A stretch of 64,000 nt of DNA from positions 39,884,501-39,948,500 of the forward strand of contig NC_091671.1 of assembly GCF_042453785.1 (NCBI RefSeq). Direction: 5' to 3'. The DNA comes from Malus domestica (Eukaryota; Streptophyta; Magnoliopsida; Rosales; Rosaceae). The notes below the pieces were generated by a model, which did not search any database, had not been told where the DNA came from, and worked only from the letters and a program-made list of their open reading frames with translations. Below are positions 5,074 through 55,570 of this stretch, piece after piece (position 1 is the first letter of the stretch; each line of letters begins with the position of its first letter). The translations under genes and the position numbers were made by a program.

Positions 5074-5282
5074 TTTAAAAGCTGTAGTGTTTTTTTTTTT
5101 TGTACAAAGAAATTGTAATAACATCAAACTTTTAATAAAATTTCTTATTCTTTATTTTGATGTGACTGAACTCGAAATTGAATGCTCGAGCTGCCTACGT
5201 ACCCTTCCAAAGAAGAGATCAAGTCGTAACGTAGTTCAAATACATTTTTTTTTCCTTGGTATTTTTTTTTTGTACCATTTGC

Positions 5283-6190
5283 AGTTTCAGCTTATGCAGG
5301 CAAGGAGCGTTGGTGTTGCCTTTTATGCTCGTGCAGACCATGAGCGTTTGGTGCCGTGTTGCAGTTTCAGCTCGTGCAGGCAATGAGCGTTGGTGTTGCC
5401 TTTTATGCTCGTGCAGACCAGGAGCGTTGGTGTTGCCTTTTATGCTCGTGCAGACCAGGAGCTTTTGGTGCCGTGTTGCAGTTTCAGCTCGTGCAGGCAA
5501 GGAGCGTTGGTGTTGCCTTTTATGCTCGTGCAGACCAGGAGCGTTTGGTGCCGTGTTGCAGTTTCAGCTCGTGCAGGCAATGAGCGTTGGTGTTGCCTTT
5601 TATGCTCGTGCAGACCAGGAGCGTTTGGTGCCGTGTTGCAGTTTCAGCTCGTGCAGGCAATGAGCGTTGGTGTTGCCTTTTATGCTCGTGCAGACTAGGA
5701 GCGTTGGTGTTGCCTTTTATGCTCGTGCAGACCAGGAGCTTAGTGCCATGCAGTTTAGGCTCGTGCAGGTGATGAGCCTTGTGCCATGCAGTTTAGGCTC
5801 GTGCAGGCAAGGAACTTTGGTTCGTGCAGTTTAGGCTCATGCGAACAAGGAGCATGTTATGTCGCCTTTTAAACTCGTGCAAACCAGGAGTGTTGATGTT
5901 GCCTTTTATGCTCGTGCAGACCAGGAGCGTTGTGCCATGCAGTTTAGGCTCGTGCAGGCGAGGAGCCTTGGTTCGTGCAGTTTAGGCTCGTGCAAACAAG
6001 GAGCATTGATGTTGCCTTTTATGCTCGTGCAGACCAGGAGCGTTGATGTTGCCTTTTATGCTCGTGCAGACCAGGAGCGTTTGGTTCATGCAGTTTAGGC
6101 TCGTGCGAACAAGGAGCATTGGTGTTGCCTTTTATGCTCGTGCAGACCAGGAGCTTTGTGCCATGCAGTTTAGACTCGTGCGGGCGAGGA
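5283..6190. repeat. Minisatellite with two alternating units
   Basis: A ~36-bp unit (TTGCCTTTTATGCTCGTGCA plus GACCAGGAGCGTTGG) alternates or repeats with a ~43-bp unit (CCGTGTTGCAGTTTCAGC plus TCGTGCAGGCAATGA). Later units change to GTGCCATGCAGTTTAGGCTC. More than ten units are visible. The array begins right after the gag stop in the element's orientation. ORFs in every frame across it are repeat artefacts. Confidence 0.9.
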
Positions 6191-6206
6191 GAATTTATGA
6201 ATTTTG

Positions 6207-10489: not shown

Positions 10490-10688
10490 TTTAATGACAC
10501 GTGACGCCCAATCATTGTCTACATAGGCGCCACGTTATCAGTTAACGGTATACTTAACAGATTGACTAACGGATGTATGAGACTGTCCCAAAATTAACAC
10601 TTTAAGTATGACTCTGGGACGAAAAAAACTTGATGTACTAAATGTTGAAAACCACAAAACATGAGGGTAGTAAACAGTCTTTTGCCCT
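10490..10688. mobile_element. Half of a foldback (MULE-like) element
   Basis: The stretch matches the right arm of the foldback elements at 41.5-43.4 kb: GCCACGT, TTAACGG, CTAACGGATGTATGAGACTG, ACGAAAAAAACTTGATGTAC and the tip CATGAGGGTAGTAAACAG ending in GCCC. The left arm is absent, so this copy is truncated or interrupted. Its tip coincides with the left edge of duplicated copy A. Confidence 0.75.
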
Positions 10689-10888
10689 AAAAAATAAAAC
10701 CTCACTTTAACAACAAGCATTGTGCACAAGAACGGAATTGGAAAAGAAAAAACTGCATATGTGATAACGAAATTGACAGCAAGAGCATAAGATGGTATTT
10801 TGTGGATAATCTATGTAAATGCTCACAAGTCACAACCCATTATGTGGGTCCCTTCATAATTGGGGCATAGTTTTATCTGTCTATATAG

Positions 10889-11184: not shown

Positions 11185-11345
11185 AACGATAGGTAGGTGG
11201 GCGGGCTTAGCTTCATAGTAAGTTAGTAATAATGTGGTTCAAATTCGTCTTTGACGAATAGACTTTAGGTTCAATTCTCGTCAAAGGTGAATTTGAACCA
11301 CATTATTATGGTAAGCCCATTGACCCACTCTCCTACCCCTTAATT
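11185..11345. mobile_element. SINE-like inverted unit shared by both duplicated copies
   Basis: Two facing segments with AATAATGTGGTTCAAATTCG and its complement flank TTTAGGTTCAATTCTCG, a box-B-like motif of the local SINE family. The homologous unit sits at about 17200-17345 in copy B, so it predates the duplication. Confidence 0.55.
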
Positions 11346-11940
11346 ATTTTTTAAAATATATTTTAATAAAAATAATAAAATTTAAAATAAGTAAAATTAA
11401 AACAAAAGAGAAACAATAAAAAAAAATACTCGTAAGTTGATGAGTATGAGTGAGGAACAATTCAGACTATCATTTCAAGTAAGTAAACATATGTTAGTTA
11501 TTTTAACATTTTGCAGTTACAATGAATGTAAAAAGGAAGACAATGATTTGAAATTATATTTTAACTATTTCAAATTACGTGTTTCTACACTTCTTCTATG
11601 TTCACCTGTAAATAAATAAATTTTAAATTGAGTTTATGTTAAAATGAATGACCAACTAACATATCATCTGATGAACAAAATTTAGTATACATTGCATCAC
11701 AAAACTCAAATTTTTCAATTTGTCCTTGAAAATTCAATAATCTTGTATTGATTTCAACCAACGATTATTATACAAAGCTCAAAAAACAACATTGAAATAA
11801 CTAACAAATTGTTGCACATGAGTTAAGTGAATTATTGTTTTAGACAACTAAATTGAAATTAAAAATAAATAAATAAACTCCAGACATGACAACCACATAA
11901 AGAGAGGGACATTTTTGTCTCAAAACATATGTAAGCATAA

Positions 11941-17093: not shown

Positions 17094-17849
17094 CTATATA
17101 GACAGCAAAAAGAGTGAAGTTTTTATAATATTTAAATTGTCAGTCGCTAATGAAGATTTTTTTTTTAACAAAAGATATTACCTACATTGAAGGGGAAGGA
17201 AATGAGTTTAGCCTCACAGTAAGCTAGTAATAATGTGGTTCAAATTCGCCTTTGGCGAGAGGCGTTAGGTTCAATTCTCGGCAAATGTGAATTTGAACCA
17301 CATTATTATAGCAAACCCATTGTAAAGCTTAGCACACTCCCTTAATGTATACTATTGTTTGTTAAAAATAAAAATAAAAAAAAAAAACATGTAGGGTACT
17401 TAGTAAGTTAATTATTTTTTAAAATATATTTTAATAAAAAAATAAAATTTAAAATAAGTAAAATTAAAACAAAAAAGTAAAATAATAAAAAAAATACTCC
17501 TATGTTTATAAGCACGAGTTAGAAATAATTTAGACTGTCATTTCAAGTAAGTAAACATATGTTAGCTATTTTAACATTTTACAGTTACAGTGAATGTAAA
17601 AATGAAGGCAATGATTTGGAAATATATTTTAACTATTTCAAATTACGTGTCTGAACAAGTCTTCTATGTTCACCGGTAAAGAAATAAATTTTAAATTAAG
17701 TTCATATTAAAATGAATGACCGACTAACATATCATCTGATGAACAAGTTTTAGTATACATTGTATCACAAAACTCAAATTTTCCAATTTGTCCTTGAAAA
17801 TTCAATAATCTTGTATTGATTTCAACCAACGATTACTATAAAAGAACAT

Positions 17850-18779: not shown

Positions 18780-18784
18780 GAATC

Positions 18785-19143
18785 TGTTTATACCATATTT
18801 AGGGCCTCGTATTTAGATCTCGTACAAATACTCGGGGGACTTAAATGTAATTATGTGATAAAGAAATGGGCAAATATGTAATAAGTGAGGAGTCCTTATT
18901 CTATAAAAGAACCCCTCACCCTCACAATTAGAGGAGACCAATTATGGAGCCTTCTCACCCCTCTCACATCCCCTCTCGTATTCAGAGGTTCTCTCCCTCA
19001 CCTCTCAAATAAATACATAATCAGTGTGGACGTAGCCCAAACCTTGGGATGAACCACGATACATCTTGTGTTATTTACATTACTTGCAGATTCACGGTCG
19101 GATTTACATTGTTCCAAGACCCCTCTGGTTTTGTGCATCAACA
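18785..19143 (+). repeat. 5' LTR of the gene-carrying element
   Basis: The LTR has TG...CA ends and a TATA box in CTATAAAA at 18901-18908, with a transcription start probably about 30 bp later. It differs from the 3' LTR at only scattered bases (for example CTCGGGGGAC versus CTCGGGGAC), so insertion was fairly recent. Confidence 0.9.
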
Positions 19144-19160
19144 TTTGGCGCCGTCTGTGG
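19144..19160 (+). other. Primer-binding site
   Basis: TTTGGCGCCGTCTGTGG lies directly behind the 5' LTR, in the form usual for plant Ty3-type elements. I do not assign the priming tRNA. Confidence 0.75.
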
Positions 19161-19640
19161 AAATTGACACAAAAAACTATGTCGGTTCTCTTTCATTTTT
19201 TCACCTCCACCGTGAATCTGCAAAATCTGCAAAATCTGCAAAAACCCAGAAACAAAAAAGATCCAAATTCCAACACCTATGCTCTTCCCTCCCTCTCTGT
19301 TCTTGTAAAAGCAACATCCAAATGATCCATTTGGAAAATCACCATCAACGTCCTTCCTGCTCTTCCTTGGTGGAGACAAATCCGTATCAACATCCTATGC
19401 TACTGCACATCGAAGAAGGTTGCAATTTTCGAGCATATGTGAAGTTATTGGCGGGAGAGATCCAAGCTTAGTGCAGTTTCAATCTGGATTTTAGGAGCTC
19501 TCATCTCATCTCATCTACGACATCCATGGCCTCATGGCCATTAGCACCAAGAAAAAGAGAGGGCCACTTGCTTTTCCACCGTAGCTTTTCGCTTTCCTTA
19601 TGTACACTAGGCAATTTGTGAATGGTACGGTCAATGACAG

Positions 19641-20280
19641 GTGTCATGTCCACTACTTTGCATGATGAACGACCTTAGCCTAGATACCAACCAAACACTA
19701 CCCACAACCCAAGAGGCTCTCCAAGCCACTCAATTGCACACCCACAAATTTCAATTTCTCAATTTAAACCCAAATACCTCCCTTTCAAATACCCAATACA
19801 CTCCAATCCTGCCCCATGCCACTACTACTACTGCCCAGAACACTCATCTTCCTGTACCTAAAACTCAAAATCACCAAAAGACCCATGGCCACAATGGGCA
19901 CTACCACCGCCCAACCACCAGGGCGCGCTTCCGAGGCGTTGTCTTCGACATGGACGAAACCTTAACAGTCCCCGTTATCGATTTCGCTGCAATGTATAGA
20001 GTCGTGCTCGGCGAAGACGAGTACGTCAGAATCAAGGCTGAGAACCCTTCCGGGATCGATATATTGCACCACATTGAGAATTGGATCCCCGAGAAGCAGC
20101 GGAAGGCGTATGATATTATCACCGATTTTGAGCGCCAGGGGAACGATCGCCTTCAGATCATGCCTGGTGAGAAAATTTTCCAACTTTGGTTTTGGATTTT
20201 CTGTTTGGTTCCCGGGAAAATGTTGGATTGGGAAAATTGTAATGTGGCAGTAGCACACAATATCTTCAATTACTTTACTT
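19641..20280 (+). pseudogene. Captured HAD-like hydrolase fragment (At2g33255 type) with retained intron start
   Basis: From about 19920 the frame reads ARFRGVVFDMDETLTVPVID, then FAAMYRVVLGEDEYVRIKAE, SGIDILHHIENWIPEKQRKA and DFERQGNDRLQIMPG. It matches the N-terminal part of a plant haloacid-dehalogenase-like hydrolase of the At2g33255 group as I remember it. The upstream Thr/Pro/His-rich stretch could be its transit peptide. At about 20165 a consensus donor (CCTG/GTGAGA) is followed by non-coding sequence, so genomic DNA with its intron was captured. HAD motif I, normally DxDGT, is DMDET here. Motifs II-IV are absent. It is not an active phosphatase. Confidence 0.85.
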
Positions 20281-20314
20281 TATTTTGCTATCCACCACTT
20301 ATGCAAAATCGTGG

Positions 20315-20556
20315 ACGGCCGGCGTGGAGCCCCACAGGGATTCCTGGCAAAGTGCTATATGCAGCGAGCCTTCGCTTTTCGGGTGGCGGGACGGATTGCT
20401 GAGGCGATCGCGGACTGCAATCGAACTCTGGCTCTTGAGCCGAGTTGTATACAAACATTGGACATGAGAGCCTCACTTCTGGAGACCATCAGGTGTTTGC
20501 TGGATTGCTTATGTTTGTACAAAGACCTTCATGGATCCTTAACCCAGCAGTATTGA
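20315..20556 (+). pseudogene. Captured TPR-protein fragment
   Basis: The frame reads GFLAKCYMQRAFAFRVAGRI then AEAIADCNRTLALEPSCIQT and LDMRASLLETIRCLLDCL. This is one tetratricopeptide unit plus the ETIRCLPD-type sequence that I associate with plant TPR/DnaJ proteins. It is preceded by CCCCACAG, which looks like an intron acceptor carried along. The family protein is several hundred residues, so this is a small fragment. It is unrelated to the neighbouring HAD fragment, so at least two separate genes contributed. Confidence 0.7.
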
Positions 20557-20618
20557 GGAATGACAACTAGGATCTTAGCTCTCTGCTTTCCACTTTTAAC
20601 TTCTCACTTAGCCAAACA

Positions 20619-20777
20619 ATGTCTTCTTCCTCATCCTCTCTGTTTTCTAACCTGAAATACTTCGTGTCACAAACTATGAACATCACCGGCATTAGTTTGA
20701 AGGAAGAACAAAAAGAACCTGCAGAAACTTATGAGCATAACTACGTGAGCAGCCATGTGCGTATACGCATTGCATAA
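20619..20777 (+). CDS. Short unidentified ORF inside the LTR element, 52 aa
   Basis: The frame begins MSSSSSSLFSNLKYFVSQTM and continues NITGISLKEEQKEPAETYEH before a TAA. The Ser-rich start and charged middle look like a genuine protein N-terminus, so it may be a third captured first exon. I cannot identify it. There is no evidence that it is translated. Confidence 0.35.
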   Translation: MSSSSSSLFSNLKYFVSQTMNITGISLKEEQKEPAETYEHNYVSSHVRIRIA

Positions 20778-21226
20778 TAGTTTGCTGCATATTTCTTACA
20801 AGAACCTTGATTCGCTCACCACCAGCGTGCTCCGAACTCACCAACTCCAGGAGCACCATGTTTTCCAATGCAGCAGTTGGCTGCTTCGACGTAGAGATGT
20901 CCCACTCCACCTGTCCCAGGCTTTCCACCACATGCCATGTACAAAGTTGAACCTGCAGGCATTGCTGCCCCCACTTCTCCACTGCTTTTGTCGGCAAAAG
21001 CAGAAAGGGAAACAGAGAACTTGAGTGCCATCTGCACTCTGCAAAGTAAAAGCAAAAATAAGATGCGGTGGAATGAGGAAAGCAAAAGAGAGGCACATGG
21101 GGATAAAGAGAAAGCAAAATGGAGGCACATGGAGACACTGCAAAAGCAATGAATAAACACCCCACCATAATGATGTAATTTATTTTCCTTATCTTTCGGA
21201 AACATCTGTATAAACCCCATCAGAGG
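20778..21226. other. Interior of the LTR element, possible fourth captured scrap on the minus strand
   Basis: A minus frame reads MALKFSVSLSAFADKSSGEV followed by a Gly-rich run (CGGKPGTGGVGHLYVEAANC). It has no recognised domain and the frame degenerates at both ends. I treat it as unassigned. Confidence 0.25.

Positions 21227-21258
<32 letters not shown>
21227..21258. repeat. (AAT)n microsatellite
   Basis: There are ten uninterrupted AAT-type trinucleotides inside the LTR element. Confidence 0.9.
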
Positions 21259-21260
<2 letters not shown>

Positions 21261-21335
21261 TAAAAAAAAGGGCAAAGCCCAAAATAAATAGGCTGGCATG
21301 TTGTGGAAGGCGAAAGCCCATAAGCCCAAAATAGC

Positions 21336-21745
21336 ACAAACCAGGTGATCAAAAGTACGCCCAGTACTTCCAAAATTATTCGGCAACCCGCCGCTATTAT
21401 CACCAACCAGGTAACCAAAAGTACGCCCAGTACTCCAAAATTATTCGGCAACCTGCCGCTATTACCACCAACTAGGTGATCAAAAGTACGCCCAGTACTC
21501 CAAAATTATTTGGCAACTTGCCGCTATTACCACCAACCAAGTGATGAAATGTACAACCCGTACTCTAATATCATTTGACAACTAGCCATTCATGCCACCA
21601 ACCAGGTGATGAAATATAACCCGTACTCTAATATCATTTGGTAACTAGCCATTCATGCCACCAACTAGGTGATGAAATGTACAACTCGTACTCTCATTCA
21701 TGCCACCAACTAGGTGATCAAAAGTACGCCCAGTACTCCAAATTA
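21336..21745. repeat. About seven units of a ~67-bp tandem repeat
   Basis: Each unit contains CCACCAACCAGGTGATCAAA, AGTACGCCCAGTACTCC, and AAATTATTCGGCAACCTGCC or a diverged TATCATTTGACAACTAGCC form. The middle units form a second subtype with GAAATGTACAACCCGTACTC. Spacer-like variable DNA is absent, so it is not a CRISPR array. Confidence 0.85.
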
Positions 21746-21749
21746 TACA

Positions 21750-22025
21750 TGAGCATTACTCATGTCATACATACATAAACATTCATGAACATCACTCATG
21801 ACAATCATACATAAACATTCATGACCATCATTCATGTCAACATTCATGAGCATATCATGATAACATTCATGAGCATCACTCATGTCAATCAGCTTCAAAA
21901 GCTTCATTTACAGAGCTTTAGCTTCAAAAACTTCATTTACAAAAGCTCTAGCTTTAAAAGCTTCATTTACAGAGCTCCAGCTTCAAAGCTTCACTTGCAA
22001 AACTTCAACTACAAAGCTTCAGTGC
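21750..22025. repeat. Short-unit repeats (CATTCATGAGCATCACTCATG and AGCTTCAAAA)
   Basis: Two simple tandem families follow one another: a ~30-bp unit with ACATAAACATTCATGA, then a ~35-bp unit with AAAGCTTCATTTACAGAGCT. They supply several short false ORFs. Confidence 0.8.
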
Positions 22026-22057
22026 AGGGTATACAAATACCGCCTCCGAACAACTGC

Positions 22058-22975
22058 CACTTCGGCCCATACATGGATTCAATTTGAAGTCTCCAGCCAA
22101 CAAACTCTATTGACTGAAGACTTGGGAGACTACATTATGTACCATATATTGGGCCTCAACTAGGCCTCATGAAAATACTTGGAGGACTTAGCTCATTATC
22201 TATGTACTGAGGAGTGAGCCCTTATTCTATAAAATAGACTCTCTCACTTTCATTAGAGAGCACTCATGAAAAATACTTGGGGGACTTAACCCATTATCTA
22301 TGTATTGAGGAGCGAGCCATTATTCTATAAAAATGACTCCCTCACTTTCATTAGAGAGCACTCATGAAAAATACTTGGGGGACTTAGCCCATCACTTATG
22401 TATTGAGGAGTGAGCCCTTATTTTATAAAAGGGACTCCCTCACCTTCGTTAGAGAGCATTGCCGCCAGCTGAGCAACTGTCTCGCCACGAGCATCACTCA
22501 TAACCCATTATTCATGTACTGAGGAGCGAGCCCTTATTTTATAAAAGGGACTTCCTCACCTTCGTTAGAGAGCATCGCCGCCAGCTGAGCAACCGCCTCG
22601 CCGCGAGCATCACTCATAAGCCATCATTTATGTATTAAGGAACGAGCCCTTATTCTATAAATAGGACTCCCTTACCATCATTAAAGAGCATCAACTATAG
22701 CCCATCATTCATGTATTGAGAAGTAAGCCCTTATTCTATAAAAGAGACTCCCTCACCTTCAAACGCCACAAAGCTGAGCCAACCAAGGCAACATAAGCCA
22801 CGAGCCAAGCAGCCTCGCAGTGTGTGCTACTTCTAGTTGAGCATCATCTCAGATTGAGCACTGCTTCATATCGAGCATCAGTTCAAGACAACATCTAGTT
22901 ACTTCGGCCCACAAATGGACTGAATTTCAAGTCTCCAGCCAAAAGACTCTCTTGACTGAAGACTTGGGGGACTAC
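22058..22975 (+). repeat. Tandem array of LTR-like promoter units before the 3' LTR
   Basis: A 75-bp block (ACTTCGGCCCA ... CAAGTCTCCAGCCAA ... TTGACTGAAGACTTGGG) occurs at about 22058 and again at 22900, just before the 3' LTR. After the first block comes an LTR-start-like GTACCATATATTGGGCCTC. Then six units follow with GGGGGACTTAGCCCAT, GAGGAGTGAGCCCTTATT, a TATA-like TCTATAAAA or TTTATAAAA, and CTCCCTCACCTTC. TATA-like motifs begin near 22226, 22325, 22421, 22538, 22655 and 22736. The same order of motifs occurs in both LTRs, so the array looks derived from LTR U3/promoter sequence. Confidence 0.8.
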
Positions 22976-23332
22976 TGTTTATACCATATTTAGGGCCTCG
23001 TATTTAGATCTTGTACAAATACTCGGGGACTTAAATGTAATTATGTGATAAAGAAAGGGCAAATATGTAATAAGTGAGGAGTTCTTATTCTATAAAAGGA
23101 CCCTTCACCCTCACAATTAGGGGAGGCCAATTCTGGAGCCTTCTCACCCCTCTCACATCCCCTCTCATATTCAGATGTTCTCTCCCTCACCTCTCAGATA
23201 AATACATAATCAGTGTGGACATAGCCCAAACCTTGAGGTGAACCACGATACATCTTGTGTTATTTACATTACTTGCAGATTCACGGTCAGATTTATGTTG
23301 TTCCAAGACCCCTCCGGTTTTGTGCATCAACA
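22976..23332 (+). repeat. 3' LTR of the gene-carrying element
   Basis: It has the same ends and TATA box (TCTATAAAAG, about 23090) as the 5' LTR, and near-identical sequence. It is preceded by the purine-rich tract ACTTGGGGGACTAC. Confidence 0.9.
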
Positions 23333-23337
23333 TAATC

Positions 23338-41552: not shown

Positions 41553-43044
41553 TTTACCCTCATGTTTTATGGTTTTCAATATTTAGTACATCAAGTTTTT
41601 TTCGTCTCAGATTCATACCTAAAATGTAAATTTTGGGACAGTCTCATACATCCATTAGTAAAACTGTTACGTCTCTCGTTAACTGTTACGTGGCGCACTA
41701 ACTGGGCACCATGTGTCATCCACTTTTTTTTTTCTTTTTTCTTTCTTTTCTTTTCTTATTCCTTCTTCTTCTTCTTCTTCATCAGACACCGCAAATTTTT
41801 TTTTTCTTCCTCCGTCTCCTTCTTCCTTCCCCATCTTCCTTTTTCTTCCTTCTCCTTCTTCTTCTTCCTCTGAAATCTGGGGAAGTTTGTTTTTTTTTTT
41901 TTCTTTTTTCTTCCTCCTTCTTCCTTCCCCTTCCTTCTCCTTCTTCTTCTTCTTCCTCCAAAATCTGGGGAAGTTTGTTTTTTTTTTGTTTTTTTTTCTT
42001 TCTTCTTCTTCCTCCTTCTTCCTTCTTCTTCTTCTTCTTCTTCTTCCTCCGACTGCAACTTTTTTTTTTCTTCCTCTTCCTCCGAAATCTGGGGAAGTTT
42101 GTTTTTTTTTCTTTCTTCTTCTTCCTCCTTCTTCCTTCCCCTTCTTCATTCTTCTTCCTTCTCCTTCTTCTTCTTCTTCTTCCTCCGAAATCTGGGAAAG
42201 TTTGTTTTTGTTTTTTTTTTTTTCTTTCTTCTTCTTCCTCCTTCTTCCTTCTTCTTCTTCTTCTTCCTCCGACTGCAACTTTTTTTTTTCTTCCTCATTC
42301 TTCTTCTTCTTCCTCCTCCTTCCTTCCTCCTTCTTCTTCTTCTTCTTCCTAAAAAAAAAATTTCATCTTCCCCTAGATTCGGAGGAAGAAGAAGAAGAAC
42401 GAAGAAGGGGAAGGAAGAAGGAGAAGAAGGGGAAGGAAGAAGGAGGAAGAAAAAAAAACTGAATCTGGGCAAATTCGGAGGAAGAAGAAGAAGAAGAAGA
42501 AGGAAGAAGAAGAAGAAAGAAGAAAAAAAAAAGAAAAAATTGAATCTGGGTAGATTCAGAGGAAGAAGAAGAAGAAGAAAGAAGGAGGAAAGAGAAGGAA
42601 GAAGAAGAAAGAAGGAGGAAAGAGAAGGAAGAAGAAGAAGAAGAAGAAAGAATGAGGAAAGAGAAGGAAGAAGAAGAAAAAGAAAAAAAAAATAAAAAAG
42701 CTTCCCCAGATTCGGAAGAAGAAGAAGGAAGAAGGGGAAGAAAGGGAAGGAAGGAGGAAGGGAGGAAGAGAGAAGGAAGAAAAAAAAAAAGTTGCAGTCG
42801 GAGGAAGAATAAGAAGAAGAAGAAGGAAGAAGAAAAGAAAAAAAAAAAAAAAAAAAAGTGGATGACACGTGGCGCCCAGTTAGTGCGCCACGTCACAGTT
42901 AACGGAAAACTTAACAGTTTGACTAACGGATGTATGAGACTGTCCTAAAATTTACACTTTAGGTATGAATCTGAGACGAAAAAAACTTGATGTACTAAAT
43001 GTTGAAAACCACGAAACATGAGAGTAGTAAACAGTATTTTACCC
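41553..43044. mobile_element. Foldback element with very long CTT/GAA inverted arms
   Basis: Outer arms of about 175-185 bp (left 41556-41730, right 42858-43044) are inverted copies sharing ACGAAAAAAACTTGATGTAC, CTAACGGATGTATGAGACTG-like sequence, GCCACGT and GTGGATGACAC. Between them the plus strand is almost pure pyrimidine for about 620 bp (CTTCTT runs with TCCGAAATCTGGGGAAGTTT units) and then almost pure purine for about 500 bp with the complementary motifs (TTCGGAGGAAGAAG, GTTGCAGTCGGAGG). The two halves can pair. The left tip is shortened compared with the family. The long Lys/Glu-rich and Phe/Ser-rich ORFs are artefacts of the low-complexity sequence. Confidence 0.85.
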
Positions 43045-43092
43045 TTTTTTTATATACAAACGATAGGGTTAATAGATGAAATATTTTTTTTA

Positions 43093-43431
43093 GGGTATAA
43101 GACTGTTTACTACTCTCATGTTTCATGATTTTCAACATTTAGTACATCAAGTTTTTTTCGTCTCAGATTCATACCTAAAGTGTAAATTTTGGGACAATTT
43201 CATACATCCGTTAGTCAAACTGTTAAATCTGTCGTTAATTGTGACGTGGCGCCTAGTCATTGTCCACATGAACGCCACGTCACAATTAACGACAGATTTA
43301 ACAGTTTGACTAACGGATGTATGAGACTGTCCCAAAATTTACACTTTAGGTATGAATCTGAGACGAAAAAAACTTGATATACTAAATGTTGAAAACCACG
43401 AAACATGAGAGTAGTAAATAGTCTTTTACCC
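43093..43431. mobile_element. Compact foldback MITE with 9-bp target duplication
   Basis: It is an almost perfect palindrome of two ~160-bp arms: GGGTATAAGACTGTTTACTA at one tip, GGGTAAAAGACTATTTACTA inverted at the other, and GACGTGGCG near the centre at about 43260. TTTTTTTTA flanks both sides (43084-43092 and 43432-43440). The 9-bp duplication and long inverted ends fit Mutator-like elements, though the T-rich site makes the exact edges less certain. It lies about 40 bp from the larger foldback of the same family. Confidence 0.85.
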
Positions 43432-43440
43432 TTTTTTTTA

Positions 43441-43545
43441 TAAACAATAATGTAAAGGTGGTTCAAATTTGTTTTTCGTGATAATCGAACCTAAAACTTC
43501 TAACATACGAATGAAGAAGAATACTGCTAGACAATAGTACTAAGT
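43441..43545 (-). mobile_element. SINE-family fragment, minus orientation
   Basis: The minus strand has TTAGTACTATTGTCTAGCAG, GAAGTTTTAGGTTCGATTAT and CAAATTTGAACCACC. It is truncated at the foldback MITE boundary. Confidence 0.6.
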
Positions 43546-54145: not shown

Positions 54146-55570
54146 ATTACAAGAACTGAATTTTGTCATAAATTCAAGACAATTAAACAATTAGGCCAAA
54201 GAAAATTGGTTTTTTGAATTTTTTTTTTCTGGGTTAAGGTTGAAAATTAGGAAAAATAATTATATACCAAAAAAAAAATTGAACAGAAAAGTGAGAACCG
54301 TTGATCAGATAATTGTAGTCTGTAATTTAGTCGACACGGTGGAGATTCCGAGAAACATATCATCACATCAACGGTTCTTAATTAAACAGAGAAAATAAAA
54401 ACAAAATAAAATTGAAAAAAAAAGAAGAAGAATAAAATTAACGAAGAAGAAGAGAGTTGGGAGGCTCAGAAGGATCCATTGGTAATTTTTGTAATCACAC
54501 TTGGGAATTTAATCCCTCAGAAAATAGGTAGATTTTCATCATCACTGCCTCAAGCAAATCGCACAAAGCAAAACCCTAATTCTAGAGAGAGAAAGAGAGA
54601 GCAAAACCCTAATTCTAGAGAGAGAAAGAGAGAGACGGCGAGAAGACAGAGATTGCTGTGACGAGGTAGGCTCTGAGCTCTGAATATATAGAAGCGCGAT
54701 TCCGATTAGGGTTCAAGTGTTTAGCCGTCTTATGGGCCGAGCAACTTTACTGAATTACGAAATTACCCCCAATACCTTTAGCCCAATAACGCCCATTTAG
54801 CAATGGACGTTAAAGATCTAAAAGTGGAAATGGGCTTCTATTCATTTATTTCCAAGTCCAATTGTAGTTAAGAGGCCTACACAATGATTGATGATTGACA
54901 AACCAATTCCACTCATATTCCAGTTGGACAATGCAATTTGTTCGTACTCTTGAACCATTCATATTATAACACGTTATTCATATTATACTCTAAAAAATAA
55001 ACTTGACGTTCATTCATATTATAACATTGATATAATGCGTGATGGTTTTTAACTACCTTTGAAATATTTCCTCCCTTTTATTGGTTCAAGGCATTGATGT
55101 AAACATTGAACATTCATTCCAAAGGGAAAGCAAAGTCACATTCAAGTTTTTTATTGATTTATGAAAGGAAAAATACCCATGGGATTTTCTGAATTGATGA
55201 GCAAGGATGGTACTATTTTCACATTTCTATTTTCCACACACTTTTGCTAATTTTTTGTCATTGATCTTCTTCAACTCATCCGGTCTGACGGTCGAAAAGT
55301 GAGAAGAGTATGTGAAAAGTAAAAATAAGTATGTGGATAACAGTATCTTTTGGCAAATATACCCAGAGCTTCTATCATCTCATTGGGTCAGTATATAAAA
55401 AGTGACTTGGGCAGAAAGAAAAAAGTCCCAAATTAGCTCAAATCTCAAACGTGTCAGCGAAACAAAACAAACCCTAGTTTGTTTCTTCTCGCTTCCTCTT
55501 CTTCTCCTTCTTCCGCAAGTAATGGATACATCGTACATGTAGATATTACAAGGAACATGAATATCTTTTC
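54146..55570. other. Intergenic DNA with a 33-bp tandem duplication and IDD 3' UTR
   Basis: At 54569-54634 a 33-bp unit (CAAAACCCTAATTCTAGAGA plus GAGAAAGAGAGAG) occurs twice, each with an AAACCCTAA telo-box. It resembles the leader of a plant housekeeping gene, but no coding exon follows. From about 55380 to 55570 the sequence is probably the 3' UTR of the IDD gene on the minus strand. Confidence 0.45.

Follow-up and report, generated by a model that had tools for sequence, protein, structure and literature searches.

Background

How does a single LTR (long terminal repeat) retrotransposon come to hold pieces of several unrelated host genes, and is such an element an isolated accident or one member of a family? 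The question is raised by positions 18785-23332 of a 64,000-nucleotide stretch of the apple (Malus domestica) genome, contig C11, 39884501-39948500 (the window; positions without a contig name refer to its first base). We report that this element belongs to a non-autonomous family with a constant frame, consisting of an LTR, a short leader with a putative primer binding site (PBS), a cargo slot, a 3' repeat module with a putative polypurine tract (PPT) and a second LTR. The cargos are unlike in the copies examined, several donors contributed to the window copy, and the recognisable coding cargo is in sense orientation only. In our judgement the cargo of this constant-frame family probably stems from host transcripts and was built by repeated template switching during reverse transcription.

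In those sections of the published surveys on which we draw, gene capture by LTR elements is infrequent and mostly single-donor in appearance. A family whose members differ by host-transcript cargo would steadily supply new exon combinations as well as sequence homology to many genes. Moreover, it would record naturally which RNAs enter retrotransposon particles, and it would allow the template-switch model to be tested from the break points alone.

Host gene pieces in the window element

A preliminary description, made from the letters of the window, proposed that several unrelated genes had contributed to one non-autonomous LTR element, and suggested locating their parents. The proposal was borne out, with at least four donors, at loci on contigs C16, C3, C15 and C17, and the matches of the first three lie far beyond chance (see the E-values below).

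The HAD-hydrolase gene piece (19686-20290, plus strand) comprises the 5' untranslated region, exon 1 up to position 20166 (G|GTGAGA) and the first 124 bp of intron 1, a figure that takes G|GTGAGA as the splice donor. It is colinear with a gene on the minus strand of C16 (96.5% identity over 606 columns, E = 2.3e-190; placed at C16 22657429-22657840 in the first search, with the full match in L041). Further HAD-like exons, recognised by eye in translations, lie downstream in the donor, which is therefore multi-exon and its intron real; the preliminary description was thus right about this fragment, its splice donor and the start of its intron. Relative to the donor the piece has a one-base deletion and a DMDGT to DMDET change, and on its own it gives weak matches to Pfam (E = 0.045) and PDB (E = 0.058).

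The TPR gene piece (20287-20511, plus strand) matches C3:37591145-37591369 (93%, E = 1.8e-91), with a second gene copy at C11:40982985-40983209 (89%). The splice acceptor that had been placed in front of it is ruled out, since the piece is interior to one long ORF (open reading frame) or exon of the donor and directly abuts the HAD intron piece, with a short overlap, GC(T/C)A, at the junction. Its Pfam TPR_1 match (1.4e-5) is under the curated cut-off. Other copies sharing both fragments, for which the preliminary description proposed a search, were not found: the HAD piece matches at two places in the genome (window and donor) and the TPR piece at three (window and two gene copies), where a missing match is no proof of rarity. 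In the donor, the start of the HAD piece lies 33 nt after a TATATT, counted from the first base of this motif, a position that on its own may fit a transcription start; the interior TPR piece shows that captures do not generally start there.

A third piece (20586-20763, plus strand) covers the pre-ATG region and the start of the reading frame of a small gene at C15:2168851-2169030, minus strand (95%, E = 6.5e-75), with a second copy at C8:2717344-2717525 (84%). The "short unknown coding-like ORF" of the preliminary description is hence present, but as a fragment of this gene and not as an unknown sequence. The fourth piece (20812-20982, plus strand) derives from an mRNA of what we take, from its translation by eye, to be a GLK-like transcription factor; the piece has no domain-model match. 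Its donor (L029) lies at C17:28741753-28742099; the BLAST match spans 20829-20982 and the bases from 20812 fit the end of the preceding exon by eye. Parts of two C17 exons are joined and the 193-bp intron between them is exactly missing.

Three further cargo segments lie on the plus strand. That at 19241-19685 has no assigned source and is not common to the 30 members compared below, save for leader extensions to at most 19303. The 74-bp segment at 20512-20585 lay within two genome queries with no match listed, and 20764-20811 is common with relatives L043 and L044 (91.7% over 20764-20823).

Divergence is 0.050 between the LTRs, and 0.034, 0.053 and 0.070 between donor and piece for HAD, C15 and TPR, respectively. 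Being near the LTR value, these figures fit capture close to the time of insertion, with the caveat that donors evolve too and that the TPR value is above that of the LTRs. The host pieces have the orientation of the LTR transcript; antisense RNA would therefore need another promoter.

A constant frame with unlike cargo

The window element is 4,548 bp long with both LTRs in direct orientation and TG...CA ends. The 5' LTR (18785-19143, plus strand, 359 bp, with a TATA-like CTATAAAAG at 18901) and the 3' LTR (22976-23332, plus strand, 357 bp) are identical at 339 of 356 aligned bases (Kimura two-parameter distance 0.050; the alignment omits the first base of each LTR). Flanking GAATC (18780-18784) and TAATC (23333-23337) constitute a 5-bp target-site duplication with one mismatch, i.e. 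four of five bases are equal; together with the LTR identity this speaks against LTRs from two separate insertions. The leader (19144-19240, plus strand) has TGGCGCCGTCTGTGG from 19146, and the PBS-like TGGCGCCGT begins two bases past the 5' LTR, as judged by position alone; ARAGORN found no tRNA gene in the window. A G-rich PPT-like tract (22958-22975, plus strand) directly precedes the 3' LTR. The matched LTRs and the primer-site-like and purine-tract-like sequences first noted were accordingly all seen.

The 3' module (plus strand) begins with a family-shared part at 21061-21180, identified by genome search and by comparison with relatives, and continues with tandem repeats at 21332-22015 (units of ≈65 bp, later ≈29 bp). 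Six further tandem repeats at 22186-22813 resemble the core promoter region of the LTR (73-81% over 34-59 bp, with TATAAA in each), and these promoter-like repeats may represent extra promoters.

TRIMs (terminal-repeat retrotransposons in miniature) are very short elements, and LARDs (large retrotransposon derivatives) combine multi-kb LTRs with a non-coding interior that is conserved. At 4,548 bp the window element exceeds the former, and its 359-bp LTR and the unlike interiors of the copies differ from the latter. Eight window stretches gave no Pfam match to gag or pol domains, as an autonomous element would have. In what it holds between its LTRs, host gene pieces with donor loci, it agrees with gene-transducing LTR elements of the Bs1 kind.

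The genome searched comprises 651 Mb in 19 contigs, and the LTR search listed 40 places, the window included, with 40 of 4712 candidates scored. We compared 30 members (L043-L062 and L066-L075), i.e. 25 of the 39 other LTR places and five places in addition. The leader is present in all 30, its homology ending between 19213 and 19303. The 3' module was seen in 26, starting between 20764 and 21170 where its start was located, and not in L053, L058, L068 and L073, of each of which only a stretch of ≈2 kb was looked at. Wherever both were seen (26/30) the cargo lies between them, in a slot of approximately 1.0-1.9 kb. Ten members were mapped at length, with LTRs ≈80-95% like that of the window; both LTRs were located in eight (not in L044 and L049). 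By eye, six of these eight (L043, L046, L047, L048, L050 and L052) have exact 5-bp target duplications, while none was seen in L051 and the boundary of L045 is ambiguous.

The cargo of the window was matched by none of the 30 members, nor does any of them show a plus-strand alignment with the window (E ≤0.01) that starts between 19293 and 20702. In a pairwise comparison of 31 cargos, 7 of 465 pairs share at least 100 bp, none including the window; in five of the seven the common part falls within the 3' third of each cargo, and in a sixth (L071/L072) it reaches the 3' end. The preliminary description had named absence of the fragments from all other copies as speaking against it, and to the letter this is what we found in the 30 copies compared. 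We do not take it as a refutation because the slot holds other inserts, many of them host-like, in the relatives, which also rules out that the pieces were added later to an ordinary copy.

Coding content of the other cargos

ORFs of at least 62 residues in the cargos of the 30 relatives (n=324; 186 sense, 138 antisense; 3' modules left out) were scanned against Pfam at E ≤0.001. The sense ORFs gave 29 family rows and the antisense ORFs none, and no retroelement domain, whether gag, pol or another, was detected among the 324. The sense-only result holds again in the second batch (L066-L075). By judgement the rows collapse to 18 families: linker histone, BRX, protein kinase, amidase, dioxygenase, DUF1068, TRAP-beta, LURP-one, WD40, purine permease, phosphotransferase, HSP70, PMR5/PC-esterase, PMEI, Myb, ribosomal L19e, P450 and lactate/malate dehydrogenase. 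Protein kinase was counted once though present in two members, one SnRK2-like and one MAPK-like as judged by eye. The ABC_ATPase, nSTAND_NTPase5 and NXPE4_C rows, all from batch A4, do not enter the host-family count; the DUF1068 match of batch A1 and all matches of batch A4 carry no assignment to single members.

For the first 20 members, 11 of 12 Pfam matches were assigned, each to a different member, and host origin is indicated in at least 12 of the 20 (11 by Pfam and L047 by its GLK donor). Tests of single-member ORFs from L043, L046, L048, L050, L053, L057, L058 and L060 gave no Pfam match at 0.001; the RCC1 match of L060 (0.0025) falls short of this threshold.

Introns and the source of the cargo

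Missing introns, the mark of RNA capture, were found in the GLK and SnRK2 pieces and not in the HAD piece. Specifically, L047 carries pieces 330-774, 1244-1306 and 1499-1623 of the GLK donor, joined as GT-AG splicing predicts, with two introns (470 and 193 bp) missing. The kinase ORF of L051 aligns gap-free to SRK2E over 91 residues, and its three contiguous pieces lie 265 and 87 bp apart at the closest genomic match (C8:29892079-29892771; the ends of the gaps are uncertain by 2 and 4 bases); a C15 copy shows this layout too. Four introns are thus missing in total, and the intron-free cargo so far comes from two donor genes. The exact loss in GLK and the loss of two introns in SnRK2 argue for spliced RNA as a source. 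The TPR and C15 pieces are uninformative in this respect.

Capture from DNA or unspliced RNA, as first suggested for the element, holds for the HAD piece, the source of which is either of the two, and does not hold for the GLK-like piece or for the SnRK2 piece of the relative. The simplest common source of the cargos is RNA, spliced or not.

Proposed template switching and its alternatives

In LTR elements, the minus strand is synthesised starting near the 3' end of the RNA and proceeding toward the leader. With template switching, a reverse transcriptase provided by another element would copy the 3' end of the element RNA, jump at least once to co-packaged host mRNAs or pre-mRNAs, and return to an element leader, whereby the PBS would be copied and the transfer completed. 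Jumps to host RNA with a return to the leader would produce the pattern seen: common sequence beside the 3' module, irregular break points, pieces in sense orientation and a kept leader. Older pieces would tend to remain beside the 3' module while newer ones replace the sequence 5' of them. In the window element, the GLK-like piece is an older one, and capture of the HAD, TPR and C15 pieces most likely coincided with, or briefly preceded, the event that gave this insertion. We are doubtful, though we regard it as possible, that capture forms an integral part of the life cycle, with an RNA of leader and 3' module whose gap is bridged by any packaged host transcripts; nearly each new insertion would then be a fresh random exon mosaic under the LTR promoter.

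Several observations weigh against template switching from host transcripts. The rest of the first 20 members have no assigned host match, the DIOX_N, Amidase and PUNUT matches are under the Pfam curated cut-offs, and L043-L047 were selected as sharing part of 20764-21060. The junction overlaps are short and possibly due to chance, and 19241-19685 and 20512-20585 have no assigned source. As to introns, the SnRK2 loss was judged from alignment spacing, and the HAD piece, which keeps and ends inside an intron, taken alone also fits DNA capture. Cargo is furthermore not always private. L069 and L073 share an inner 153 bp, contrary to the 3' gradient, and at two places on C9 the match to L051 begins within the SnRK2 piece and extends to the query's 3' end. 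C13:39286794-39288283 shares the first 371 bases and the 3' part of L051 but not its SnRK2 piece, with ≈790 other bases instead, which looks like an internal cargo swap. These alignments show cargo that was apparently both inherited and exchanged.

The unspliced intron of the HAD piece would be expected if cargo entered as DNA, by recombination or through gene-capturing DNA transposons inserted into element copies, and several donors per element are common in Pack-MULEs and Helitrons. We nevertheless consider entry as DNA unlikely, since introns are missing from the GLK and SnRK2 pieces, the recognisable coding cargo is sense-only and the cargo is confined to one slot in all 26 members where it could be placed. 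Moreover, none of the 11 inverted-repeat pairs (≥20 bp) reported in the window brackets the cargo; Helitron ends were not looked for.

Read-through transduction, in which transcription into or from neighbouring genes gives a chimeric transcript that is reverse transcribed, is the heading under which a 2026 review, in the part available to us, classes Bs1, a TRIM and Rider (PMC13317346). Here, however, the donors are on separate contigs and the pieces are internal, so that one element would require several independent read-through events, and we regard this origin as quite improbable. Least probable of all is an ordinary old non-autonomous family of subfamilies with diverged interiors and incidental host matches: some cargo segments are common to several members, but the donor loci already contradict it, the window pieces being 93-96.5% identical to, and colinear with, host genes, and the lack of any match to the window cargo among relatives with such similar LTRs also speaks against it.

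Relation to known systems

Pack-MULEs and Helitrons are DNA transposons with an exchangeable host-gene mosaic between constant ends. The apple family resembles them in this mosaic and differs in its LTR ends, PBS-like site, 5-bp duplications and spliced cargo. Bs1 of maize, an LTR element, includes retroelement coding sequence in addition.

According to the sections of the literature considered here, Bs1 contains pieces of three host genes and was one of the first examples (PMC13317346), and its cargo consists of exons only (PMC4717578). Both Bs1 and the window element are LTR elements holding pieces of several host genes, whereas the apple copies examined carry unlike cargo and one window piece retains intron sequence. 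Gao et al. 2016 describe, in the part consulted, the TRIM GmaRetroS15 with pieces of three genes as intron-free exons, gene-bearing TRIMs of 1,172-1,449 bp, and 30 elements with gene fragments in 7 of 289 subfamilies (PMC4717578). GmaRetroS15 is likewise a non-autonomous LTR element with multi-gene cargo; the apple element, in contrast, is 4.5 kb long and keeps intron sequence in one piece, and the 30 apple copies share none of the cargo of the window element and, among themselves, little.

In maize, the portion of Baucom et al. 2009 used here gives 425 elements with at least 189 captures, many in LTR retrotransposons of unknown superfamily, and no LTR element that combines fragments from two or more standard nuclear genes (PMC2774510). 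Capture of gene fragments by LTR retrotransposons is common to both, while a multi-donor element, absent there, is present in the apple family. Jiang and Ramachandran 2013 counted captured genes (PMC3726574); the excerpt at hand of this genome-wide survey of host-gene capture has small RNAs on some and makes no mention of multi-donor cargo exchanged within a fixed frame. Among open-licence papers our searches turned up neither a family whose multi-donor cargo is exchangeable nor one of this kind in apple. Hence multi-donor capture is already known (Bs1, GmaRetroS15), and a family built of such capture was not found in print.

Other features of the window

Upstream of the element, direct repeats at 11340-11777 and 17408-17844 are 90.7% identical over 440 columns, with more paired pieces at 10688/16696 and 11110/17093; this pair is possibly another transposable element. 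The stretch 5267-6199 is repetitive, with self-matches of ≈76-83% at many offsets. Near-palindromic inverted repeats occupy 42881-43447 (43092-43432 against itself, 92%), a region that is also like 10499-10694. Finally, 54299-54554 on the minus strand has two C/D-box snoRNA matches, snoZ155 and snoR41.

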